NCBI RefSeq assembly: GCF_902702915.1 | Contig: NZ_LR738849.1 | Coordinates: forward strand, 62,001 to 126,000 | Source of the DNA: Desulfovibrio sp. 86 | Lineage (GTDB): Bacteria; Desulfobacterota; Desulfovibrionia; Desulfovibrionales; Desulfovibrionaceae | DNA length: 64,000 nt | Direction: 5' to 3' | Shown: piece after piece, positions 14,934-19,011 of the stretch | Layout: each line of letters begins with the position of its first letter | Numbering within the stretch: position 1 is the first letter of the stretch | Program-made: the position numbers and the translations under genes | The notes under the pieces: model-generated | Database searches by the model: none | Told to the model about the DNA's origin: nothing | Seen by the model: the letters and a program-made list of their open reading frames with translations, nothing else

Positions 14934-16370
14934 CTACTGCAGTTTTTTCGCCAGCAGTTCGTTCACAAGGGCGGGGTTGGCCTTGCCCTTGGTGGCGCGC
15001 ATGATCTGGCCCACAAAGAAACTTATGAGTTTGGTCTTGCCGCCCTTGAACGCTTCCACTTCAGAGGGATTGGCGGCAATGACGGCATCCACGGCTTCTT
15101 CAATGGCGGATGTATCGGAAATTTGCACCAGTCCCTTTTCCTTCACATAGGCTTCGGGCATGATTCCGCTTTCAAAGATGTCGCCAAAAATATCACTGGC
15201 GATCTTGGCGCTGATAAGCCCTTGATCCACAATGCGCGCCAGTTCGGCAAGGGCTTCTGGCTTCATGGCCCATTGGGCCGGATCTGCGACATTGACGCCA
15301 CGGGCGTGGCATTCCCGCAGCAAGGGGCCAAGCACAAAATTGGCGGCCTTGCGCGCATCATAAAGCTTGGCGGCGGCCTCAAAAAAGTCCGCCAGACCAC
15401 GGCTCTGCACCAGCACTTCAATCTCGGCCTCGGGCAGGCCCGTCATCTGCGTAAAGCGAGCGGCCCTCGCCTTGGGCAATTCGGACAGTTCTTGCTTCCA
15501 ACGGGCCATTTCGTCGGCAGAAATTTCCACAGGCAGAATGTCCGGGTCCGGAAAATACCGGTAGTCGTGCGCTTCTTCCTTGCTTCGCATGGACGCCGTG
15601 CTGTTCTTGACCGCGTCATAGAGACGGGTTTCCTGTACGACTTTGTCTCCATCATCCAGGACGTCCTGCTGACGGCCAATTTCATACTCAATGGCACGCT
15701 GCACATTGCGGAAGGAATTAAGGTTTTTCAGTTCCGTGCGTGTGCCGAAGGCTTCTGCTCCCACAGGGCGCAAGGAAACGTTGGCATCGCACCGGAAGCT
15801 GCCTTCTTCCATATTGCCGTCGCAGACGCCAAGATAGGTGACAATGCTGTACAGCGCCTTGAGGTAGGCCACAGCTTCGGCGGCGGAGCGCATGTCCGGC
15901 TCGGAAACGATTTCCACCAGAGGCGTGCCGGCCCTGTTGAGATCTACATAGCTGACGTTTTCGCCTTGCGCATGAATGTTCTTGCCCGCATCGTTTTCCA
16001 TATGGATGCGGGTAATCCCTACTCTTTTGGTCACGCCGTCAACGGTGATATCAAGATGGCCGTGCTCGCAGATGGGCAGCTCAAATTGGGAAATCTGATA
16101 CCCGGCGGGCAGATCGGGATAAAAATAATTTTTGCGTGCAAAGACGGACCGCGAATTTATGGTGCAGTCTGTGGCCAGACCTACCAGAGCGGCAAAGTGT
16201 ATGGCCTGCTTGTTGGGTACAGGCAAAGAACCAGGCATGCCAGAGCAGACTTCACATACATTGGAGTTCGGCGGTTGGCCAAACGTGGTCGGGCAGGAAC
16301 AGAACAGTTTGGAGGCCGTGGCCAGTTGCACATGCACTTCCAGGCCAATAACGGCTTCATAAGCGGCCAT
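14934..16370 (-). CDS. gatB: Aspartyl/glutamyl-tRNA amidotransferase subunit B
   Basis: 478 residues. It opens with [13 protein letters not shown] and carries [19 protein letters not shown] (zinc-site cysteines) and ENDAGKNIH, with a C-terminal YqeY-like tail from about residue 330. GatB is the kinase/tRNA-binding part of GatCAB, which amidates Glu-tRNA(Gln) and Asp-tRNA(Asn). gatA and gatC are not in the window. ATG 16370 is preceded by GAGGGAG. It sits 26 bases after the DUF89-like gene, so nadK, the DUF89-like gene and gatB appear to be one leftward operon. Confidence 0.96.
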
Positions 16371-16396: not shown

Positions 16397-18142
16397 TCAG
16401 CTCTGATGAGGAATGCTTGCGTCAAAGTACTTGCCCACGCCATACTCTCCCCTGCGGAAGAAAAGCCTGGCTTCAGGGCCAATGATCTGCATTTCACGGT
16501 TTTTGCCTTGCACATCCAGAGCGATGCGCATTTCCTTGGTGCAGCCGGTGGAGTACGTCGAATCCTTTCCGGACCACTGCGGGGGCACCTTACGCCCCAG
16601 AAGCGCAAAGCTTTCCTCAATATCTTCAAATGTTTGAAAGCGCCACACATCAATGAGACCGCTGCGTTGCACGCGTTCCCACATGTACATGAGGTCATCC
16701 CCGTCCATGCCTTCGATGAAGTGCTCAGCGGGGTTGATTATCAGGATATTATCCATTTTTTTGCGCAAATTGTCCACAAAGGCATGCACCAGGCTGATTG
16801 CGGTGGAGGTTTCACCGGGGATGCTGCCAATGATGCAGCTGTAGAACATAACGGGCCGCCCCTGGTCCTTGGCCTCGCGCATGTTGGCGATGATGTTTTC
16901 CGCCTGAGTGGCAATGGCTTCTTCGCTGAATTTGCGGGCCTCGCGGGCGTGCTTGCGCAGTTTGATGTGAAAACCATTGCCGTCACGCCAGTAGCAGACG
17001 ATGTCGCGCGTGAACTCCTGGCTGGCGCCAAGCAGCATATCGGCGGCACGCCAACCTTTGCCGAGGATAAGGTCTGCCTCTTTCCAGGCGCGGGAAAACG
17101 TCACGGAGACACGGTACAGGTTGAGCCTTTCACGCGTGCCGTCGCCGATCACCACAAGGCGATGCTCTCGCAAATGGCGCAGCAGATCATTCTTGCTCAG
17201 TTTGTCCTGACGCAAAACAATGCCTCCGCGCAACCATGGCTTGAGCGAAGGATCGGTTTCCACATCTTCCAGTGTGGGCGCGTAAAAATAAAATCCGGAT
17301 TTGACGGCAAAAATAACCTTATGCCCCATGCGGATAAGGCTTTGAACCATCACAAGGTCAAAGAGGGTGCCCCCGTCAGCGTCGCAGAGGAAAAGCACGG
17401 TGCCGGATCGCCCGGCGCTGGCCTCAAAATAAAGGCGCAGACTTTCGCAGGCAGTATACGCCTCATCCATGGCCCTGCGAATTTCTTCACTGGACGGTGT
17501 GCTTTCAAGCCAGTCGCGCGACATGGCCGAAAGACAGAGCAGGCGTGTCACTTCCGCATAGTCCATGCTGCGGCGCGCCGCAGAAATGCCGGATGGCGGC
17601 GGCCCCTTGGGCATGGCCTCAAGATTGGCCATAATCTCCGGCAAAGCCAGCACTTCAAGCTGTTGCGCCGTTGATTCCCGCCGCCTGTTTTCCCACGGAT
17701 CGTCCAGCATATGCCCCTGCGCCAGCACAAGACCGGTCATCCTTTTGACCAGCCTCGATGGAATAAGGGTATGCTGCGCTATGTACTGCGAAAATCGATA
17801 GCGGCAAAATTGCAAAATACGTCTGCGTTCCGCCTTGTCGGGTACTGACGAGCGTACCAGCCGCATGATGATGCGCCATGAGCGGTTATATTGATTGCGC
17901 AGTTCCACAGAGGGGTTCTTGGCGCACAGCATGGAAAACGTGGCGTCCGAGCACGGCAGATACACCTGGTCAGGGGCAAGGTGCACCATGAAGGACATCT
18001 GTTCCGGGCTCGCTATGAGGTCAGGGTTCATACGGTACGCGATATTGTTGTCCATCAGCATGCTGTACAGCCATGCGTCAAAACGGACATCATTCCCCAG
18101 ACGGATATCCCGTACCTTCATGGGGACAAGCCCTTTATTCAT
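16397..18142 (-). CDS. Large protein with degenerate DUF89/ARMT1-like domain
   Basis: 581 residues. Residues ~247-400 follow the DUF89 (damage-control phosphatase) pattern: FLCDADGGTLFDLVMVQ at 252-268 corresponds to the family's DNAGE-x-x-FD motif, YAPTLEDV (287-294) to NDATLEDA, and EADLILGKG (355-363) to ADLVIAKGQ. Recalling the family consensus, the metal-ligand Asn is Ala255 and the second metal Asp is Ala288, while Asp254 stays. The ~245-residue N-terminus and the C-terminal ~150 residues (MFYSCIIGSIPGETSTA onward) are not recognised. Its start overlaps the nadK stop by four bases (ATGA), and gatB follows after 26. It could be a redirected enzyme or a binding protein. Confidence is for the domain relationship; function is unknown. 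Confidence 0.6.
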   Translation of the reverse strand: MNKGLVPMKVRDIRLGNDVRFDAWLYSMLMDNNIAYRMNPDLIASPEQMSFMVHLAPDQVYLPCSDATFSMLCAKNPSVELRNQYNRSWRIIMRLVRSSVPDKAERRRILQFCRYRFSQYIAQHTLIPSRLVKRMTGLVLAQGHMLDDPWENRRRESTAQQLEVLALPEIMANLEAMPKGPPPSGISAARRSMDYAEVTRLLCLSAMSRDWLESTPSSEEIRRAMDEAYTACESLRLYFEASAGRSGTVLFLCDADGGTLFDLVMVQSLIRMGHKVIFAVKSGFYFYAPTLEDVETDPSLKPWLRGGIVLRQDKLSKNDLLRHLREHRLVVIGDGTRERLNLYRVSVTFSRAWKEADLILGKGWRAADMLLGASQEFTRDIVCYWRDGNGFHIKLRKHAREARKFSEEAIATQAENIIANMREAKDQGRPVMFYSCIIGSIPGETSTAISLVHAFVDNLRKKMDNILIINPAEHFIEGMDGDDLMYMWERVQRSGLIDVWRFQTFEDIEESFALLGRKVPPQWSGKDSTYSTGCTKEMRIALDVQGKNREMQIIGPEARLFFRRGEYGVGKYFDASIPHQS

Positions 18143-19011
18143 TGATTTTCCCCCACGCAGCTGCCCGCCGACCCCTGTAAGACAAAACCGCGGCTGCGCA
18201 GGCGTTCAAAAAACGAGGCCCCTTCACCGAGGAACTGCACGGCGCCAGACCAGCCCGAAACGCGCAACATGTCGCCCTTTTCAAGCTTCTGCCCCTCTTG
18301 CCCGTCCACCGTCAGGTAGCAGTCGGTGGAGCCGCGCAACACCTGGAGCTGGATATCCGTGTTACCGGGAAAGACCATGGGAGATATGGTATTGAGGAAA
18401 GGACAGACCGGCGTGAAGCCGATGGCATCCATTGAAGGATACAGAAGCGCGCCGCCCGCCGAGACGCTGTAGCCGGAACTGCCGACGGGCGTACACAGAA
18501 TGACGCCGTCACTACGCAGGGAACCCATGCGCTGCCCGTCAGCCCATATGTCAAGACAGACCAGGCGCGACAGGGAACCGCGGCTCACAACAACGTCGTT
18601 GATGGCTGCACCTTCGGCAAGTGCCCTGCCGTTACGGGTAAGGAACCAGCGCAAGGCCATGCAGGAGCGAACGCGCTCTTGGCCTTGCAGGCACTCTTCG
18701 AGCTTTTCACGCCAGTTTTCCGGCTGGGCGTCAGTAAGAAAGCCCACGCGGCCAAAATTGATGCCCAACACAGGCACGTTGCGGCCCACAAGGCGCCGCG
18801 CAACCCCGAGCATGGTGCCGTCGCCGCCAAGCACCACCACAAAATCAAGATCATCGGCAGCATAGAAAGAAGACGCCTGCCCGGCCTCCACAACATCCGC
18901 CTGATGTCCCTGCGTTTTCAGCCATGCGCCAATTTCTTCGCCCAGCTCTGCAGCGCGTTCGTGGCGGGCCTTGCAAACCAAAAGGACGTGGCATTTGTGT
19001 TGATTTTGCAT
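18139..19011 (-). CDS. nadK: NAD kinase
   Basis: 290 residues. VVVLGGDGTMLGVARRL near residue 57 carries the GGDGT motif, followed by INFGRVGFLTD and CTPVGSSGYSVSAGGALLYP, all diagnostic of ATP-NAD kinase. It makes NADP in the cytoplasm. The stop overlaps the start of the DUF89-like gene (ATGA), which implies coupled translation. No clear ribosome site is visible before ATG 19011. The gene diverges from gmhA across 119 bases. Confidence 0.94.
   Translation of the reverse strand: MQNQHKCHVLLVCKARHERAAELGEEIGAWLKTQGHQADVVEAGQASSFYAADDLDFVVVLGGDGTMLGVARRLVGRNVPVLGINFGRVGFLTDAQPENWREKLEECLQGQERVRSCMALRWFLTRNGRALAEGAAINDVVVSRGSLSRLVCLDIWADGQRMGSLRSDGVILCTPVGSSGYSVSAGGALLYPSMDAIGFTPVCPFLNTISPMVFPGNTDIQLQVLRGSTDCYLTVDGQEGQKLEKGDMLRVSGWSGAVQFLGEGASFFERLRSRGFVLQGSAGSCVGENQ

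Follow-up and report, generated by a model that had tools for sequence, protein, structure and literature searches.

The window, a stretch of 64,000 nucleotides of DNA from Desulfovibrio sp. 86, carries a gene for a fusion protein that consists of a DUF89/ARMT1-like domain with a broken phosphatase pair and, distinct from it, a C-terminal alpha/beta domain that is strictly conserved (Table 1). As a candidate function, we tentatively propose that the protein may be a nucleotide N-ribosyl enzyme whose DUF89 half is dead or rebuilt. We hold this proposal with somewhat less than even confidence because its basis is a weak rank order among comparisons of predicted structure, together with the placement of a small set of residues.

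The fusion gene lies immediately downstream of nadK, whose product matches the NAD kinase families PF01513 (72.7 bits) and PF20143 (87.4 bits) above their Pfam cut-offs. The original prediction that the two genes are coupled through an ATGA tetranucleotide is confirmed, with positions 18139-18142 forming the overlap between the nadK stop and the fusion-gene start. On the other side, 26 bases separate the stop of the fusion gene from the start of a gatB-like open reading frame. The fusion gene is present in 82 of 101 genomes and, class-wide, in 176 of 199 (its own genome being counted in both surveys), and its dN/dS relative to three close relatives is 0.06-0.08. Both its wide presence and this low ratio therefore indicate that the gene is real and not a chance reading frame. 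Family-wide statistics below refer to 156 loci that yield 128 distinct sequences. The class contributes 112 of these, and the remaining 16 belong to other families of the phylum.

Table 1. Features of the fusion gene and its neighbours, with positions numbered from the first nucleotide of the window.
Feature	Positions	Strand	Basis
nadK (NAD kinase)	18139-19011	minus	PF01513 and PF20143
Fusion protein gene, 581 aa, degenerate DUF89 plus C-terminal domain	16397-18142	minus	ORF, Pfam, model
DUF89 N-terminal helical half, residues 41-245	17408-18022	minus	Model against 1xfi; PF01937 in relatives
DUF89 Rossmann-like half, residues 246-397	16952-17407	minus	PF01937 at 214-363; hhalign 99.5%
Asp254-Ala255, place of canonical Asp-Asn; Asp254 kept, Asn lost	17378-17383	minus	Profile alignments, family counts
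Ala288, place of second catalytic Asp	17279-17281	minus	Profile alignment, family counts
Asp334-Gly-Thr-Arg-Glu338, candidate rebuilt pocket	17129-17143	minus	Asp334, Gly335 and Glu338 identical in all 128 sequences
C-terminal alpha/beta domain, residues 398-581, no known family	16400-16951	minus	Folding, profile searches, conservation
Tyr434, first strand of C-terminal domain	16841-16843	minus	Tyr in 126/128
Glu473-His474, short helix after second strand	16721-16726	minus	Glu in 120/128, His in 115/128
Asp498, just before third strand	16649-16651	minus	Asp in 110/128
Glu537, last helix, before last strand; candidate nucleophile	16532-16534	minus	Glu in 128/128
gatB-like ORF, downstream	14934-16370	minus	Name from the original prediction; ORF and neighbour survey

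Retention of a DUF89 scaffold, as originally predicted, is evident from both profile and fold comparisons. PF01937 (ARMT1-like) is the sole Pfam family found in the fusion protein, matching residues 214-363 with a score of 31.3 bits, where the cut-off is 25. Profile-profile comparison with hhalign likewise finds the relationship, at 99.5% probability, between the fusion family and 22 short DUF89 proteins hand-picked from the same phylum. The set of DUF89/ARMT1-like proteins (PF01937) considered here includes At2g17340 (1xfi), PH1575 (2g8l), AF1104 (2ffj), a yeast protein (5f13) and PANK4. An AlphaFold2 model built from the window protein and 67 relatives (pLDDT 89.3, pTM 0.86) aligns over residues 41-398 with At2g17340 (VIA-align Z 24.1, 301 residues aligned, rmsd 3.0), and it also aligns with PH1575 (Z 22.0) and AF1104 (Z 21.2). 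The top row outside the DUF89 group has a Z of 8.4.

The protein had been described as having long unrecognised regions at both ends. This description stands for the C-terminal region, by which the window protein exceeds other DUF89 proteins by about 180 residues, but not for the N-terminal one. The latter is the helical half of DUF89, as indicated by the alignment of model residues 41-398 to 1xfi and by the PF01937 matches of relatives. Specifically, five of six relatives that were scanned match PF01937 and one does not, and in three of the six the match covers the helical half, running from residue 69-88 to residue 389-404 (the longest from 69 to 404). The idea that the N-terminal 213 residues form a new domain was rejected because the region aligns with DUF89. 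HMMER also matched the N-terminal part weakly with phage late activator C (E 0.006), a result judged to be due to chance.

By alignment, the break in the canonical phosphatase pair of the window protein is solid. The motif series DN...FD...(K/R)...(N/E)D...D is present in all 22 short DUF89 proteins, and hhalign pairs Ala255 with the Asn of their DNAGE segment and Ala288 with the Asp of their ND segment, in keeping with the two Ala replacements that had been predicted. A PDB profile search aligns the same columns with PH1575 and AF1104. Thus, the first catalytic Asp (equivalent to PANK4 D623) is present in the window protein as Asp254, and the second (equivalent to PANK4 D659) is missing. Other canonical residues, namely Asp262, Lys281, Asp293 and Lys362-Gly363, are kept, whereas the ND and KGMGNFE segments are lost. 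Among the 128 distinct relatives, position 254 is Asp in 94 and another residue in 34, and position 288 is Asp in none. At position 255, 57 of the 112 sequences from the class have Ala and none has Asn; outside the class, Asn occurs there in one of 16.

Could this protein nevertheless be an ordinary, active DUF89 damage-control phosphatase that carries an extra domain? Its PF01937 score above the cut-off, the Asp254 of 94 sequences and an Asp at position 287, one column before the lost residue, in 28 of 128 would be compatible with such activity. However, every one of the 128 fusion sequences lacks an Asp at position 288, the window protein has Tyr287-Ala288, and in PANK4 mutation of either catalytic Asp (Asp623 or Asp659) is reported to abolish activity (PMC9352595). 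Judged from these alignments, continued activity of the ordinary kind seems very improbable.

Two observations on variant sequences deserve mention. The Asp at column 287, as seen for example in KEGFYFDCPT of locus L110, is perhaps a shifted or compensating ligand. Furthermore, six loci outside the class (L139 and L150-L154) have DUF89 segments that are more canonical than those of the Desulfovibrio copies (DNAGG, NDAGE, DEAGE), as if these sequences were intermediates in the decay of the DUF89 site.

The DUF89 half may not be dead everywhere, given the Asp287 of 28 sequences and the invariant residues that this half contains. Asp334, Gly335, Glu338, Asn341, Lys354 and Glu355 are identical in 128 of 128 sequences, and Asp262, Lys281 and Asp293 are each kept in 127. 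Asp334 follows a predicted strand and lies in a loop that hhalign aligns with the canonical 'STG' loop. Such a pattern is consistent with a rebuilt pocket, in which Asp334 and Glu338 would combine with Asp262, Asp293 and Lys281 to create a new metal or ligand site, the C-terminal domain would close over it, and the protein would be a new metal-dependent hydrolase. Weighing against this arrangement are the lack of Asp254 in 34 of 128 sequences and the far denser conservation of the C-terminal domain. We therefore consider a rebuilt metal site to be possible but doubtful.

The strictest conservation is in the C-terminal domain, not in the DUF89 half. Among the 128 distinct sequences, 60 of the 145 columns spanning residues 430-574 have one residue in at least 95% of sequences, compared with 14 of 223 columns in the helical half and 20 of 152 in the Rossmann half. 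Comparisons with three close relatives give dN/dS values of 0.019-0.056 for the C-terminal part versus 0.089-0.132 for the helical part. As judged by eye, invariant residues often occur right after the ends of predicted strands.

This domain appears to travel with DUF89. Its profile finds matches in 40 of 395 genomes of the phylum, and 38 of these 40 matches are inside open frames of at least 576 amino acids, with the DUF89 part being judged by frame length alone in five genomes (G534, G568, G573, G586 and G604). The match in G240 is a copy of the fusion that is split over two frames, and that in G512 is weak (E 7e-4). Apart from this weak match, no C-terminal domain lacking DUF89 was found among the 395 genomes, and none was matched in viral contigs or plasmids. 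Beyond the phylum, the survey consisted of a single genome-contig scan, of which the best 80 of 365 relatives were available.

Sequence searches do not place the C-terminal domain in a known family. The window's own domain has no Pfam match, and a PDB profile search with the domain returned one match at chance level (E 2.1). A Pfam search with 68 members of the domain family gave 19 scattered families that were judged incoherent, the best being DUF2415 (17 members, E 0.0019) and FAD_binding_4 (four members, E 0.0027); PF05014, the family of nucleoside 2'-deoxyribosyltransferases, was not among the 19 for any of the 68 members. The entire fusion protein has no match in NCBIfam or PADLOC or in a single-sequence PDB search. 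In the open-licence literature, we found no description of a fusion between DUF89 and this C-terminal domain and no work linking ARMT1 with deoxyribosyltransferases, and a search for Desulfovibrio and DUF89 gave a single listing that, from its listing, was judged unrelated.

Predicted structure offers a more specific suggestion. When folded alone, the C-terminal domain is modeled with a pLDDT of 87.2, and its fold best resembles those of deoxyribosyltransferases, DNPH1 (5-hydroxymethyl-dUMP N-hydrolase) and TIR domains, a likeness that is not decisive with a top Z of 7.6. All of the first 29 VIA-align rows (Z 5.6-7.6, rmsd 2.8-3.6, 88-103 residues aligned) are SPARTA (TIR-APAZ), deoxyribosyltransferase or DNPH1 chains, many of which repeat a few proteins. 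The deoxyribosyltransferase/DNPH1 group provides rows 4, 6 and 8-29, with Z values of 5.6-6.7 that are below Z 8. These values should be read with the understanding that the input comprised Foldseek's 1000 best matches, and that the tool deems Z 7-8 typical in searches without true relatives. In a library of viral structures, the first rank goes to a protein annotated as Blasticidin M (BlsM; probability 0.99, E 0.02), and ranks 9, 11 and 25 are occupied by proteins named as deoxyribosyltransferases (probabilities 0.97, 0.90 and 0.47), interspersed with RecA, AAA and helicase rows. Foldseek found no match to the domain at E 0.001 or better in either the PDB or the viral library.

The rows for SPARTA chains, with Z values of 6.5-7.6, raise the issue of NAD cleavage by TIR-like domains. 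The top row, 8i87, aligns at Z 7.6 over a range (2-113) that we take to be the TIR part, and ThsA appears at Z 4.7 and 4.3. The general fold class of TIR and SLOG domains that cleave NAD or bind cADPR is represented among the structural rows, with residue pairing to TIR not being visible in the VIA-align output. Unlike TIR/SLOG defence systems, however, the fusion protein has no PADLOC match, and the neighbours seen are housekeeping genes.

RecA chains lead the Foldseek PDB list when this is sorted by E-value (E 0.02-0.1), the first having E 0.02, TM 0.27 and rmsd 14. Some relatives also have a Lys after the GSIPG loop, such that the succession of strand, GSIPG(Q/E/K)T loop and helix could represent a degenerate P-loop-like nucleotide-binding domain. 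Yet the RecA rows superpose with a TM of only about 0.2-0.3 and an rmsd of 10-15, and no RecA chain is among the best 50 VIA-align rows, which extend down to Z 4.1 (RecA still being possible). The spacing of the GSIPG loop is unlike that of the Walker A motif. The RecA and KaiC rows were rejected for their poor superposition, and a P-loop-like domain appears highly improbable.

To return to N-ribosyl chemistry, the C-terminal domain is predicted to have an alpha/beta arrangement like that of DNPH1, BlsM and the nucleoside 2'-deoxyribosyltransferases (PF05014). Catalysis by DNPH1 is reported to involve Y24, D80 and E104 as well as E55-H56, a pair located on a helical element (PMC10603095). The C-terminal domain has Tyr434, Glu473-His474, Asp498 and Glu537 at corresponding places, matched by their position relative to secondary structure rather than by superposition. 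All five residues occur together in 99 of 128 sequences; Asp498 is replaced by Asn, Ser or Thr in 18 and His474 by Tyr in 13. Four placement rules, which were set post hoc, are satisfied by a fraction of 7e-5 of 200,000 shuffles of residues 430-564. The spacing differs from that of DNPH1, in that Asp498 and Glu537 are 39 residues apart, with an extra helix, compared with 24 residues from D80 to E104.

Unlike DNPH1 and the PF05014 members, the C-terminal domain is joined to DUF89 in all cases that were checked, and it has no detectable sequence homology to them. Specifically, hhalign gives probabilities of 3.7-14 against 17 PF05014 members and 0.2-0.8 against five DNPH1-like proteins (two overlapping sets), with canonical DUF89 as a control reaching at most 0.1, and in the printed alignments to the PF05014 members the proposed residues are shifted out of step with their supposed counterparts. 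Sequence homology to PF05014 or DNPH1 was therefore rejected. Because hhalign detects no homology, we suggest that the domain may work like DNPH1 and do not claim that it is a member of that family. As a separate observation, a bacterial protein close to animal DNPH1/Rcl is encoded at L182:1369-1800 (best E 1e-33), and six of 297 genomes from the phylum have a match to it, which is weak in one case.

The C-terminal domain is the strongest lead and is probably the part of the protein that works as an enzyme. Its best candidate activity is to cleave or transfer a nucleotide N-ribosyl bond by double displacement, as in DNPH1 and the nucleoside deoxyribosyltransferases. Glu537 would serve as the nucleophile and Asp498 as the proton donor, Tyr434 would lie next to these two, and Glu473-His474 would assist. 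In this reading, the DUF89 half would have been turned into a platform for binding, capping or oligomerisation.

Gene neighbourhoods give a hint about the substrate. Within the class, 98 of 104 distinct sequences have nadK upstream in the same orientation at a distance of at most 800 bases (at most 300 bases for 97). This count requires a flank of at least 1.2 kb, which leaves out eight of the 112 sequences. Outside the class, a search with the window NadK (E 1e-10) found nadK in none of the 16 flanks fetched. Given 98 of 104 versus 0 of 16, the coupling to nadK is specific to one class. The conserved linkage to nadK that was originally predicted thus holds within this lineage and fails as a general link. 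Of the 99 distinct sequences from the class that have flanks of at least 1.2 kb, 64 have a gatB gene within 1 kb downstream; with flanks of 1.8 kb the count is 45 of 79. Conservation of gatB just downstream, also predicted, is thus common but inconstant.

Could the protein instead act on NAD kinase as a partner or regulator, with no catalysis of its own? The upstream nadK of 98 of 104 in-class sequences and the translational overlap in the window fit such a role. In conflict with it are the 16 flanks outside the class, all devoid of nadK, and the 19 nadK-carrying genomes among the 20 searched of 23 class genomes that lack the fusion. The conservation pattern, moreover, is like that of an active site. 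The regulator idea is accordingly weak, and we rate a non-catalytic partnership as improbable.

Several other arrangements were seen near fusion genes. Nine neighbours outside the class, hand-picked from seven of the 16 loci, are CorA, PhoH, YbeY-PdxJ, AcpS, DBI_PRT, QueC, CNNM, FHA and aconitase-C. Gene order around the fusion gene recurs in five loci outside the class, with a CorA-type gene before and a PhoH gene after it in L141, and with L142, L143, L147 and L148 being compared by order and size. One open reading frame, L143:2887-4023, matches YbeY and PdxJ over separate parts and is an apparent fusion of endoribonuclease and pyridoxal-phosphate synthesis functions. Among the six in-class exceptions to the nadK arrangement, one has a GidA-family protein upstream instead (L033:5057-6385).

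The overlap and gene order suggest that the fusion gene is probably co-transcribed with nadK in the class, and therefore that the substrate of a putative N-ribosyl enzyme may come from the pool of NAD(P) or of nucleotides, which is the weakest step of the proposal. In its complete form, this proposal envisions a dead damage-control phosphatase serving as the cap or substrate-handling platform of a new family of N-ribosyl hydrolases or transferases, which would sanitise the NAD(P) or nucleotide pool and whose translation would be coupled to that of NAD kinase in Desulfovibrio and related bacteria. Taken as a whole, we regard this scenario as unlikely, more so than N-ribosyl chemistry by itself.

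DUF89 proteins have been studied as metabolite-repair phosphatases, and yet the fusion described here, which most genomes of the class keep, has lost the catalytic pair. In addition, it carries an extremely constrained domain that is not clearly described by any Pfam model. The candidate residues make the N-ribosyl reading directly testable. If nucleotide cleavage beside NADP synthesis proves to be true, then the fusion would offer both a new pool-sanitising enzyme and an example of a dead enzyme fold that has been reused as a platform.
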